This document shows positions 37,859 through 40,507 of a DNA stretch of 64,000 nt, in pieces; position 1 is the first letter of the stretch, and the number at the start of each line of letters is the position of its first letter. The notes under the pieces were generated by a model that was given only the letters and a program-made list of their open reading frames with translations, searched no databases and was not told the DNA's origin. The position numbers and the translations under genes are program-made. Origin of the DNA: Acidipropionibacterium virtanenii (GTDB taxonomy: Bacteria > Actinomycetota > Actinomycetes > Propionibacteriales > Propionibacteriaceae). The stretch is from NCBI RefSeq assembly GCF_003325455.1, contig NZ_CP025198.1:62001-126000 (forward strand), written 5' to 3'.

Positions 37859-38932
37859 TCAGCGCCGATCCGTGCCCGGTCCCGGTGAGAATCGCAGTGT
37901 TCCTCGGGCGGCCACCGGTGCCTTCTCGGGCTCGACGACCATCTGGTCCGCCTTCTCCTGCTCGGCTGCCGTTCTCACCGCGGCCTTGGCGTCGCGCATC
38001 GCCTCGGCCAGGTGCATCTCCTGTGTGACGAACTCGTGGACGTGACAGGTGTAGCCGTGCTCGCGGCCGAGCCTGGCGATGTAGCCGTTGATGTAGTCCA
38101 CCTCGGTGGGGCGGCCCTTGGAGAAGCCCTGGTACATCGACGGGTAGTGCAGCGGGTTGCCCACCTTGCTCACGTGGTTCACCGAGTCCACCTCCTCCTG
38201 GCGGCTCATGATGAGCGCGATGCCGGCCCTCTCGCAGGCGTCGTAGGCCTCGTCGACAAGAGTCCGGGTGATCTGGTCGGCCCCGTCGTAGGACGCGTAC
38301 TCGCCCATCGTCGAGGTGAACATGGTGCACAGGGTGTTGACCACGGAGTTGAAGATCACCTTGGCCATCAGGGTGCCGTACAGGTTGCGGGTGAGTTCGG
38401 GATTGAGGTCGGCGGCGCGGAAGTCGCGCTCCATGGCGCGGGTGGTCTCGTCAGGGATCTCGGTGGCGTTGACCATGTGCATGGTGCCCGCTCCCGGAGC
38501 GCCGATGAAGTCGACGTCGCCGGGCCCGTTGAGGACGGTGGCGACCAGGGCGGTGCCGGCCACGATCCGCTTGTTGGGGAAGTAGCGGCGCATCTTGTCG
38601 AGGTGGCCCATCCCGTTCATCGCGGTGAACAGGTACTGGTCGGGTGTGAACAGGTGGGCGCAGCGCTTGAGCACGTCGTCGAGCTGCATCTGCTTGACGA
38701 AGACGATCCACACGTCGGGATGCCCGGTGTACTCCTCAGGGGTGCACAGATGGATCGGAACCAGGTGGCGATCGGCGTGGTCGCGGGACACGTAGACCCC
38801 GCCCTGATCGCGTACGGCGTCGACGTTGGGCTGCCAGGTGTCGACGAAGTCGACGTCCAGACCGGCGACCTCCTGGAGCAGCACCCCGTAGCGGTATCCC
38901 ATGGCTCCTGCACCGATGACTGTGTACTTCAT
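37859..38932 (-). CDS. 2-dehydropantoate 2-reductase (ApbA/PanE) family protein
   Basis: 357 residues. The N-terminal Rossmann motif is VIGAGAMGYRYGV (residues 5-17). The C-terminal ApbA domain has the catalytic-type Lys in LYGTLMAKVIFNSVVNTLCTM near residue 203 and a conserved SMYQGFSKGRPTEVDYINGYI near residue 278. True PanE reduces ketopantoate with NADPH in CoA synthesis, but many relatives reduce other 2-oxo acids. AGGGAAG precedes the ATG at 38932. The last 50 residues are a charged extension beyond the usual end. Expression appears to be controlled by a leader-peptide attenuator (38981-39104). Confidence 0.83.
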   Translation of the reverse strand: MKYTVIGAGAMGYRYGVLLQEVAGLDVDFVDTWQPNVDAVRDQGGVYVSRDHADRHLVPIHLCTPEEYTGHPDVWIVFVKQMQLDDVLKRCAHLFTPDQYLFTAMNGMGHLDKMRRYFPNKRIVAGTALVATVLNGPGDVDFIGAPGAGTMHMVNATEIPDETTRAMERDFRAADLNPELTRNLYGTLMAKVIFNSVVNTLCTMFTSTMGEYASYDGADQITRTLVDEAYDACERAGIALIMSRQEEVDSVNHVSKVGNPLHYPSMYQGFSKGRPTEVDYINGYIARLGREHGYTCHVHEFVTQEMHLAEAMRDAKAAVRTAAEQEKADQMVVEPEKAPVAARGTLRFSPGPGTDRR

Positions 38933-38980
38933 CTTCTCGACTTCCCTTGAATGTGGGTTGTGCGGACTGGGACACGCAAC

Positions 38981-39050
38981 AAAAAACCCGCCGTCCCGGA
39001 AGGGACAACGGGATGCGCGTCTCACTCGCTTCGCGGCGGGTAGGACGCGC
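38981..39050 (-). promoter_or_regulatory. Transcription attenuator: competing hairpins and U-tract terminator
   Basis: Reading the minus strand: hairpin 1 is GCGCGTC/GACGCGC (39050-39044 with 39021-39015), starting at the leader stop codon. Inside its loop, CCCGCCG (39040-39034) can instead pair with CGGCGGG (38993-38987), an antiterminator. The terminator pairs 39012-39002 with 38997-38987 (11 pairs, two G-U) and ends in TTTTTT (38986-38981). Antiterminator and terminator share 38993-38987, so they exclude each other. Confidence 0.75.
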
Positions 39051-39091
39051 TAGCTAATAAGCTCGCCGGTGGCCAGCGACGTCTGCCTCAT
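39050..39091 (-). CDS. Leader peptide MRQTSLATGELIS of the attenuator
   Basis: A 13-codon frame ending TAG directly at hairpin 1. The last codons are CTT ATT AGC; CTT (Leu) and ATT (Ile) are rare in this genome, the usual feature of control codons. A -10-like TACTGT (39104-39099) lies seven bases before the ATG, so the message may be leaderless. Stalling at CTT/ATT would cover hairpin 1 and free the antiterminator. Sensing of branched-chain aminoacyl-tRNA is inference. Confidence 0.65.
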   Translation of the reverse strand: MRQTSLATGELIS

Positions 39092-39098
39092 GCCCTGC

Positions 39099-39151
39099 AC
39101 AGTAGGGCGTCCCGCAGATCGGGAGAACCCGTCCCAAAATATGGTCGGACC
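39099..39151 (-). promoter_or_regulatory. Promoter region of the attenuated gene with a FadR-like site
   Basis: TACTGT (39104-39099) is the proposed -10 element. GGTCCGACCAT (39151-39141, minus strand) is the same 11-mer as in the mmsA promoter, roughly 35-40 bases upstream of the -10. This suggests shared control by a GntR/FadR-type regulator not encoded nearby. Confidence 0.5.
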
Positions 39152-39187
39152 GTTTGATCGGGGGGTGTGCCCGGGGCCGGCACGGGA

Positions 39188-40507
39188 TCAGTGGACGGCG
39201 GTGCCGCGGTCGTACAGGGCCGATTCCTGACGGCCGCTGATCACGGCGAACAGCGCCCCGACCAGCAGATACGCCACCGCCAGGCCGATAAGGCCGGCGT
39301 GCGAGATGCCATGCACCGGCAGCACCAGGGCCGCCACCACGGCCCCGCCGACGAACAGCGCGTTGTAGATCATGTCGTAGACGATGAAGATCCGGCCCTT
39401 GTAGGCGTCGTCGATGTGTGCCTGGCAGACCGTGTCCACACCGGCCTTGACCGACTGGGCGAACAGGCCGACGAGGAACGCCGCCACCAGCAGTCCCCAG
39501 CGGTTGAGCATCGCGCCCGGGAAGACCTGGATGACGGCGGTGGCCACCATCATGGCGATCAGGGCCCGGCGCATCCCGATGGCACGCACCACCCTGGGCA
39601 TGAAGCCGGCCGACAGCACGAAGCCGGCCCCCATCACCACTCCCCACACGGCCATGTCGCCCATCGCTGCGTTGACGTCGACCTTGGCGTGGAAGTAGTT
39701 GCGGTAGCCCAGGATCATGGCCACCGAGTAGACGCCGAAGAGCAGTCGCTGGAATCCGATGAGGGTCAGCCCGGAACTCACTACCGGCAGGCCGCTCAGG
39801 TGCCTGAAGCCGTCGATGATCCCGTGCAGCACCTGGGAGGCCGACCTGCTGGGGTCGGGGACGGTCGGGCCCAGCTCGTCGCGACCGAACCGGGTGCCGA
39901 GGAGGGCCGAGAAGGCGAAGAGCACGGCGGAGACGCAGAAGATGATGGTGTCGGCGTGGTGGACCGGCATCCAGTGGCCGCCGATCATCCGGACGGCGGC
40001 CGCCACCACGACCCCGATCATCATTCCCAGTGGGCCGATCACCGGCATGATCGACGACGCCGTGAGGTACTCGCGCCGGTCGATGGTGTGCTCCAGGCCG
40101 GCGGTGAGCGCCGCCAGCAGGTAACGGTTGAGACTCATGGCGATCAGCAGCAGGAACAGCAGGGTGAGGTGGGCCGGGTTCTGCCGGGCGCCGTCCCACA
40201 CCAGGGCGCCCACCGCCAGCGCGATGATGCAGCGCAGCCCGTCGGTGCCCACCAGGATGCGCTGGCGCGGCCAGCGGTCCAGGGTCACGGAGATGAAGGG
40301 ACCGATGATGCTGAACGGCAGCATCGTGATGGCCAGCACCATGGCGATCGACCACGCGTCGGGCTGCTGCTCGGGGGACAGGAGCACGTAGGAGGCCAGC
40401 CCCGTCTGGAGGGTGCCGTCGGCGGCCTGGGTGGAGAACCTCACACCGAGGATCCGGCGGAACCGGGGCAGGCGCCACAGCCGGCGCAGTCCCTCGCTGA
40501 AGGCCAC
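39188..40507 (-). CDS. MFS transporter
   Basis: 439 residues, about 12 membrane segments. The cytosolic loop after helix 2 has TLDRWPRQRILVGTD, equivalent to motif A, and a longer central loop (GTRFGRDELGPTVPDPSRSASQV) splits the two six-helix halves. GTG start at 40507 with GAGAGGGG five bases upstream. The N-terminus (MAFSEGLRRLWRLPRFRRILGVRF) resembles MFS exporters related to the MFS_3/TetA-like group. Substrate unknown. It is transcribed alone toward the attenuator region, whose promoter lies just beyond its stop. Confidence 0.8.
   Translation of the reverse strand: MAFSEGLRRLWRLPRFRRILGVRFSTQAADGTLQTGLASYVLLSPEQQPDAWSIAMVLAITMLPFSIIGPFISVTLDRWPRQRILVGTDGLRCIIALAVGALVWDGARQNPAHLTLLFLLLIAMSLNRYLLAALTAGLEHTIDRREYLTASSIMPVIGPLGMMIGVVVAAAVRMIGGHWMPVHHADTIIFCVSAVLFAFSALLGTRFGRDELGPTVPDPSRSASQVLHGIIDGFRHLSGLPVVSSGLTLIGFQRLLFGVYSVAMILGYRNYFHAKVDVNAAMGDMAVWGVVMGAGFVLSAGFMPRVVRAIGMRRALIAMMVATAVIQVFPGAMLNRWGLLVAAFLVGLFAQSVKAGVDTVCQAHIDDAYKGRIFIVYDMIYNALFVGGAVVAALVLPVHGISHAGLIGLAVAYLLVGALFAVISGRQESALYDRGTAVH

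Follow-up and report, generated by a model that had tools for sequence, protein, structure and literature searches.

A probable ilvB-type leader-peptide attenuator upstream of an ApbA/PanE-family dehydrogenase gene in Acidipropionibacterium

The window (the whole 64-kb stretch of DNA that was analysed) belongs to a 3.43-Mb Acidipropionibacterium genome. On its minus strand, an MFS transporter gene is followed in order by a TACTGT hexamer, 7 nt of spacer, a short upstream open reading frame (uORF), a hairpin (P1), a terminator with a T6 tract and a gene of the ApbA/PanE family. The individual features are located as follows.

40507-39188, minus strand: MFS transporter gene, upstream and on the same strand (Pfam MFS_1)
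39099-39104, minus strand: −10-like hexamer TACTGT, separated by 7 nt from the leader ATG (39091); TANNGT is conserved
39050-39091, minus strand: uORF of 13 codons, MRQTSLATGELIS-stop, predicted to be leaderless
39061-39056, minus strand: control codons CTT ATT of the uORF
39015-39050, minus strand: P1 hairpin, the putative anti-antiterminator, called from folds; the equivalent P1 covaries in 47 ilvB leaders
39034-39040, minus strand: candidate antiterminator 5' arm CCCGCCG, inside the P1 loop, complementary to 38993-38987 and energetically weak
38987-39012, minus strand: intrinsic terminator hairpin of 11 pairs (8 G-C), whose 3' arm (38993-38987) is the candidate antiterminator partner
38981-38986, minus strand: U tract (T6) of the terminator, then GTTG; an NTTG tail after the T tract is also present in 39 of 50 ilvB leaders
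37859-38932, minus strand: controlled gene, ApbA/PanE (ketopantoate reductase) family by domain profiles, 357 aa, predicted 2-oxo/2-hydroxy acid dehydrogenase

The uORF reads ATG AGG CAG ACG TCG CTG GCC ACC GGC GAG CTT ATT AGC TAG (39091-39050), with CTT ATT AGC TAG at its end (39061-39050). The outer arms of P1 are GCGCGTC (39050-39044) and GACGCGC (39021-39015), and the first P1 base is the G of the uORF stop codon. Within the P1 loop, CCCGCCG (39040-39034) is the exact complement of CGGCGGG (38993-38987), the 3' arm of the terminator. An earlier note on this DNA had described a promoter-like TACTGT, a uORF, a first hairpin, complementary arms, a terminator and a T6 tract, and all of these sequence elements were found on the minus strand. 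Its description of the Leu and Ile codons as rare was also borne out: in four window genes, ATT accounts for 0 of 106 Ile codons and CTT for 4 of 160 Leu codons.

The leader fold is unusually stable (z −4.7), none of 200 shuffles being equally stable, and its terminator is the only terminator-like site in 38800-39300 (0.3 expected from shuffles). A G followed by at least five T occurs at one other place only in the 64-kb window. No sigma-70 promoter was detected at the scan threshold in 38800-39300, so the promoter is called solely from the conserved −10-like hexamer and its spacing. A distance of 7 nt between a −10 box and the start codon is expected for a leaderless transcript. No Rfam family reached its gathering score in the window, the T-box family (RF00230) included.

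The leader was found in four of the five Acidipropionibacterium genomes searched: the window's genome, genome G001, A. thoenii DSM 20276 and A. jensenii DSM 20535. The pattern GAGNTTATTNNNTAG occurs once in each of these four and nowhere else in the five. The leader peptides are MRQTSLATGELIS, MRQTSPTSGELIG, MRQTPQNAGELIR and MRQTGEVIS; the last begins with GTG and has an in-frame deletion. Among the four species the central part of the peptide varies, and (Leu/Val)-Ile is retained in all four. The ATT (Ile) codon is invariant, while CTT (Leu) is replaced by GTT (Val) in A. jensenii; of the Leu and Ile codons stressed in the earlier note, only the Ile codon is invariant. TANNGT, 7 nt and ATG or GTG recur in all four leaders (TACTGT, TACCGT, TACCGT, TATTGT). 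The outer arms of P1 are unchanged in the genus and the inner stem carries compensatory changes (UAC/GUG, CGC/GUG, CAC/GUG). The earlier note had proposed a search of relatives in which a lack of conservation of peptide or pairing would count against the leader; both are conserved in four of five genomes. The leader is real and conserved.

An MFS gene is retained upstream at each of the five genus loci, pieces of it being 77-93% identical. In the fifth genome, MAG UW_MP_PROP1_1 (L006/L088), leader and terminator are absent, the MFS gene is kept (84% identical), and a −10-like TACCGT sits 7 nt before the dehydrogenase ATG. The locus has the look of one from which the attenuator was excised.

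A covariance model (R1) was built from the four apbA leaders and run on 198 genomes of the family. It matched ilvB leaders in other genera, with a best E of 2e-7. Of the ten best non-source loci, seven were read (L098, L102 and L104 were left out): five are leaders before the acetolactate synthase gene ilvB, and two (L097, L100) are located inside long open frames and were discarded.

From 109 ilvB matches, 50 upstream regions were taken, comprising the 30 best-scoring and 20 chosen ones. In all 50, GC-rich sequence leads into a T tract (terminator). All 50 also contain a uORF with a V/L/I run of at least three residues, where the uORF was defined by the longest V/L/I run among ATG and GTG starts in any frame, a choice that favours long runs. 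A hairpin adjoining the terminator was detected by automatic search in 49 regions and is visible by eye in L122. Stem scores of at least 7 of 8 were reached in 41 of the 50 regions versus 111 of 2000 shuffles. The ilvB leader of the window's own genome reads MNGLVVLS. Across 47 aligned ilvB leaders, covariation of P1 and terminator was 0.323 compared with 0.165 for shuffled alignments (0/500). Six of eight P1 pairs change on both sides, and slid controls drop to 0.05-0.12.

A second model (R2) was derived from these 47 ilvB leaders alone, L122, L135 and L162 having been left out of both the alignment (A3) and the model. Its best match in each of the five genus genomes had an E of 3e-18 to 2e-17 and lies directly before ilvB in four. 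R2 matched the apbA leader in three of the four genomes having one (E of 2.7e-5, 1.7e-4 and 9.6e-4) but, up to an E of 1, not that of A. thoenii. One further genus match (L202, E 0.034) falls inside a long open frame and was rejected. Among 118 family genomes, 112 had a match at E up to 0.001; in this family-wide run, with its stricter filters, that of A. jensenii was the only apbA leader listed.

The layout of an ilvB-type leader, with P1 at or after the control codons and then an intrinsic terminator, is present here, and R1 and R2 match reciprocally, R2 missing one apbA leader in four. The control run is only two codons long before apbA, whereas the 50 ilvB leaders have at least three, and the case for the apbA leader is drawn from a single genus. 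As judged from sequence, the apbA leader is probably an actinobacterial ilvB-type leader-peptide attenuator placed on a new target gene. The idea of trp/ilv-like attenuation before an ApbA/PanE gene thus gains from the conservation and the reciprocal models, but the case is not an isolated one: it belongs to a class that includes ilvB, ilvD, cimA and leuS leaders.

In the window's genome, R2 also identified a leader, MNTGRVLISRRAV, before ilvD (G000:C1:825658-825740, minus strand; locus L201). It carries GTC CTT ATT AGT (Val-Leu-Ile) and therefore shares the CTT ATT pair with the apbA leader. Beyond one match per genome and the A. jensenii apbA leader there were 17 extra R2 matches, of which 15 were read (those on G115 contig 15 and G153 contig 4 were left out). 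These 15 leaders (L186-L200), all from Propionibacteriaceae, precede the citramalate synthase gene cimA (4) or leuS (11); NCBIfam confirmed three of the four cimA and six of the 11 leuS assignments, and the remainder were made by eye. Two of the cimA leaders end in IIIS and two in VVIIR, and the leuS leaders carry LL or LLL. The slot codons therefore fit the downstream gene in all 15, with Ile (twice with Val) for cimA and Leu for leuS; ilvB and ilvD leaders carry mixtures. Since the slot codons match the downstream gene across the class, the apbA leader with its (Leu or Val)-Ile would report mainly isoleucine.

The Propionibacteriaceae ilvB, ilvD, cimA and leuS leaders resemble the apbA leader in their tandem of uORF, P1 and terminator, in the position of the control codons just before the stop codon or P1, and in being described by the same model. 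They differ from it in control codons, target genes and P1 loop sequences. It is suggested that Actinobacteria reuse the ilvB attenuator as a cassette, in which the sensed amino acid appears to be specified by the codons of one fixed slot. Leader codons would then offer a way to annotate gene function where few riboregulators are characterised. No cimA leader was found among the best 8 of 31 literature matches listed, and no propionibacterial branched-chain leader was found, both in freely readable papers, where absence is weak evidence.

The closest described system is the ilvB-II motif, or ilvBNC attenuator, of Corynebacterium. According to the accessible parts of two papers (PMC10272879; PMC11857589), it shares with the apbA leader the uORF, branched-chain codons, P1, a P2 terminator with U tract, and the geometry proposed for the antiterminator. 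Narunsky et al. (PMC10272879) proposed an antiterminator between the P1 loop and the right shoulder of P2, and in the sections available an ilvB-II reporter showed low expression in rich and high expression in minimal medium. In the available part of Ryabchenko et al. (PMC11857589), a terminator/antiterminator/anti-antiterminator model was supported by mutation, and expression mostly followed terminator stability; the antiterminator there uses the 5' boundary of the terminator, not its 3' arm. The C. glutamicum ilvBNC transcript is described as starting one nucleotide from the uORF start codon; for the apbA leader, a start at or beside that codon is predicted. As far as the published account could be consulted, ilvB-II differs in its target (ilvB), in a longer codon run and in being reported once per genome; here the target is apbA and the run is two codons. 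The window's genome holds at least three copies of the design (apbA, ilvB and ilvD leaders) and so departs from a strict definition of ilvB-II. Candidate leuS and ilvB attenuators of Streptomyces, Corynebacterium and Mycobacterium likewise have branched-chain-codon leader peptides before terminators; they concern other genes, and no ApbA/PanE gene is among them in the accessible part of that study (PMC1262725).

No apbA/panE-type gene under leader-peptide or T-box control was found among the best 15 of 63 and 12 of 38 matches listed from the freely readable literature, which is weak evidence of absence. In the portion available, PMC11651100 refers to T-boxes and to a gene for ketopantoate reductase in separate, unrelated contexts, and the main text of a T-box survey (PMC2494555), to the extent accessible, does not mention panE, ApbA or ketopantoate. 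The kind of control, ilvB-type leader-peptide attenuation, is known, and its target gene is new among the literature searched.

In the proposed mechanism, RNA polymerase would probably begin at the uORF start codon or right beside it. Under a shortage of charged tRNA-Ile (and of the neighbouring Leu or Val tRNA), a ribosome would stall on CTT ATT and cover the 5' arm of P1. P1 would then open, its loop segment CCCGCCG could pair with the 3' arm of the terminator, and RNA polymerase would read into the gene. When the codons are read fast, the ribosome would leave at the stop codon, P1 would form, and the terminator would stop transcription about 50 nt before the gene. Because this layout is shared with the branched-chain switch leaders of relatives, a low level of isoleucine (with leucine or valine) is probably the main condition under which the enzyme is produced. 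Which amino acid is sensed is inferred, as is the choice of a branched-chain 2-oxo or 2-hydroxy acid as substrate.

Judging by ribosome footprint sizes, about 13 nt should be shielded when ATT occupies the A site, and the greater part of the P1 5' arm falls within them. When the first 14 nt from ATT were hidden in the folds, none of the four apbA leaders kept the outer stem of P1; hiding 12 nt left three outer P1 pairs in three of the four. The candidate antiterminator is 1.5-4.5 kcal/mol worse than the terminator formed by the same segment. With the P1 5' arm masked, the terminator was still dominant (0.63-0.97 in the apbA leaders, mean 0.97 over all 54). This leaves a kinetic switch or the involvement of some further step. 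Complementarity between the P1 loop and the terminator 3' arm exceeds that of shuffled loops in the four apbA leaders (0/300), which are four related sequences, and is no higher than in shuffles in the 50 ilvB leaders (z 0.16). The antiterminator suggested in the earlier note, which shares seven bases with the terminator, draws support from the complementarity in all four apbA leaders and the ilvB-II geometry, but in these folds the terminator is the more stable structure even with P1 blocked. As a model, a three-state switch is plausible; the specific rearrangement of the P1 loop with the terminator 3' arm is, in our estimate, evenly poised between right and wrong. Two other pairings were discarded. 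Antiterminators involving the terminator 5' arm were rejected, P1-loop complementarity being below the shuffle mean in both the ilvB and the apbA sets. A long-range pairing of the leader start with sequence after the U tract, seen in a single-sequence fold, was rejected, since both the U tract itself and bases lying before the probable transcription start would have to take part.

These folds bear on the question of whether the control codons are the sensor at all. The attenuator could be real and its read-through set by uORF translation, a protein or Rho, with a small or indirect branched-chain response. A thermodynamically competitive antiterminator is absent in most of the class, as such an account would lead one to expect; codon mutations in a Streptomyces ilvB leader were reportedly without effect (PMC1262725, accessible part), as was a single Val codon change in a C. 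ulcerans leader (PMC10272879, accessible part). However, slot and downstream gene agree in amino acid for the 15 extra leaders and for all 50 ilvB leaders, and replacing three Val codons in C. glutamicum abolished Val-dependent expression, in earlier work cited in the accessible part of PMC11857589. We consider it unlikely that the codons play no sensing part. It is harder still to credit that the uORF encodes an arrest peptide, sensing a small molecule via the exit tunnel and not tRNA charging. Its architecture and codon slot are shared with ilvB, ilvD, cimA and leuS leaders whose N-termini differ, and the rare ATT codon is invariant, even if four species preserve both GE(L/V)I and the N-terminus MRQT, the latter despite synonymous codon changes and one GTG start.

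Another explanation is that the terminator merely ends the MFS gene and that the uORF is fortuitous. The MFS gene does end upstream on the same strand, at 39188, and accompanies the dehydrogenase gene in all five genus loci. Nevertheless, in all four leader-bearing species it is separated from the terminator by a −10-like box and by a uORF that is conserved, and the leaderless MAG has kept the MFS gene but not the terminator, its TACCGT being placed 7 nt before the dehydrogenase ATG. This explanation is highly improbable, and leader-peptide attenuation of the dehydrogenase gene is retained as the preferred reading.

The 357-aa product contains both ApbA domains (PF02558, E 6e-29; PF08546, E 1e-25) and scores 176 bits against TIGR00745 (cut-off 141). 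The window's genome holds three TIGR00745 members above the cut-off, and the leader-controlled one is 23-24% identical to the other two. PanE works after PanB, and a search for panB (TIGR00222) gave no match in this genome at E up to 0.001, while 11 of the 14 genomes used as controls were positive in the same search; the enzyme is therefore unlikely to serve pantothenate synthesis. Nine solved relatives were found (E up to 1e-10), all labelled 2-dehydropantoate 2-reductase, one of them as putative. One structure, 3wfi, we take to be a D-mandelate dehydrogenase acting on branched 2-oxo acids. Outside the genus, at least 77 loci among the matches listed encode homologues that are 51-76% identical, mainly in Lactobacillaceae and Bifidobacterium; a few others among these matches are in Actinomyces, Propionibacterium and other genera.

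Within 700 nt upstream of the Lactobacillaceae homologues, a T-box motif (at most one mismatch) was present at 31 of 50 loci and absent at 19. All ten motif-bearing loci scanned permissively matched RF00230 upstream of the gene, below the gathering score; L029 reaches that score. In Liquorilactobacillus the specifier is AUC (Ile), as read by cmscan alignment in L029, L031 and L023 and by alignment with those in L030 and L081. These same five loci have divergent apbA paralogue pairs, each gene with its own T-box motif, and one specifier per pair (AUC) is callable. For Lentilactobacillus type B, the specifier is tentatively GUG in most of 14 loci (GUU in L058, AUA in L043). No specifier amino acid is claimed for the Lentilactobacillus type A and divergent Liquorilactobacillus T-boxes, because the candidate triplets covary as a helix, and an apparent Val codon (GUC) in the cmscan alignment of L. 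mali was dropped on the same grounds. T-boxes in which the usual specifier triplet covaries in a helix, possibly with an unusual stem I, were observed at L035, L039-L042, L044, L045, L048, L050, L054, L057 and L066.

The T-box resembles the apbA leader, as proposed here, in sensing tRNA charging and in controlling a homologous enzyme, with an Ile specifier in Liquorilactobacillus, but it binds tRNA directly, has no uORF and is an unrelated RNA. In the gene tree, the lactobacillar genes fall outside a supported 12-row actinobacterial group that contains the window gene. Given this placement and the unrelated RNAs, the isoleucine controls of Acidipropionibacterium and Liquorilactobacillus look independent. 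The Ile T-box of Liquorilactobacillus, together with the failure to find panB, favours 2-oxo/2-hydroxy acid metabolism near isoleucine over pantothenate synthesis.

A wider interpretation is offered tentatively, as one that we judge somewhat more likely to fail than to hold. The leader would belong to a group of attenuator cassettes with exchangeable codons (ilvB, ilvD, cimA, leuS, apbA) spread across one regulon. The apbA enzyme would be an isoleucine-side 2-hydroxy acid dehydrogenase that came under tRNA-Ile control on at least two independent occasions, through an ilvB-type leader peptide (Acidipropionibacterium) and through an Ile T-box (Liquorilactobacillus). Its reaction may be the oxidation of 2-hydroxy-3-methylvalerate, which arises in lactic fermentation, back to the oxo acid for rebuilding isoleucine. 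A widespread and poorly annotated dehydrogenase, named ketopantoate reductase, would thereby be tied to isoleucine supply by two unrelated RNA sensors.

For the homologues in Actinomyces, Bifidobacterium, Propionibacterium and Microbacteriaceae, a search for a common leader yielded neither a consensus fold nor, at E up to 1, any Rfam match of relevance (a single microRNA match, located elsewhere, is put down to chance). An element consisting of TANNNT, 6-10 nt and GCYCACRAGGC was observed about 180-220 nt upstream of homologues in these four groups (L008, L010-L014, L078).
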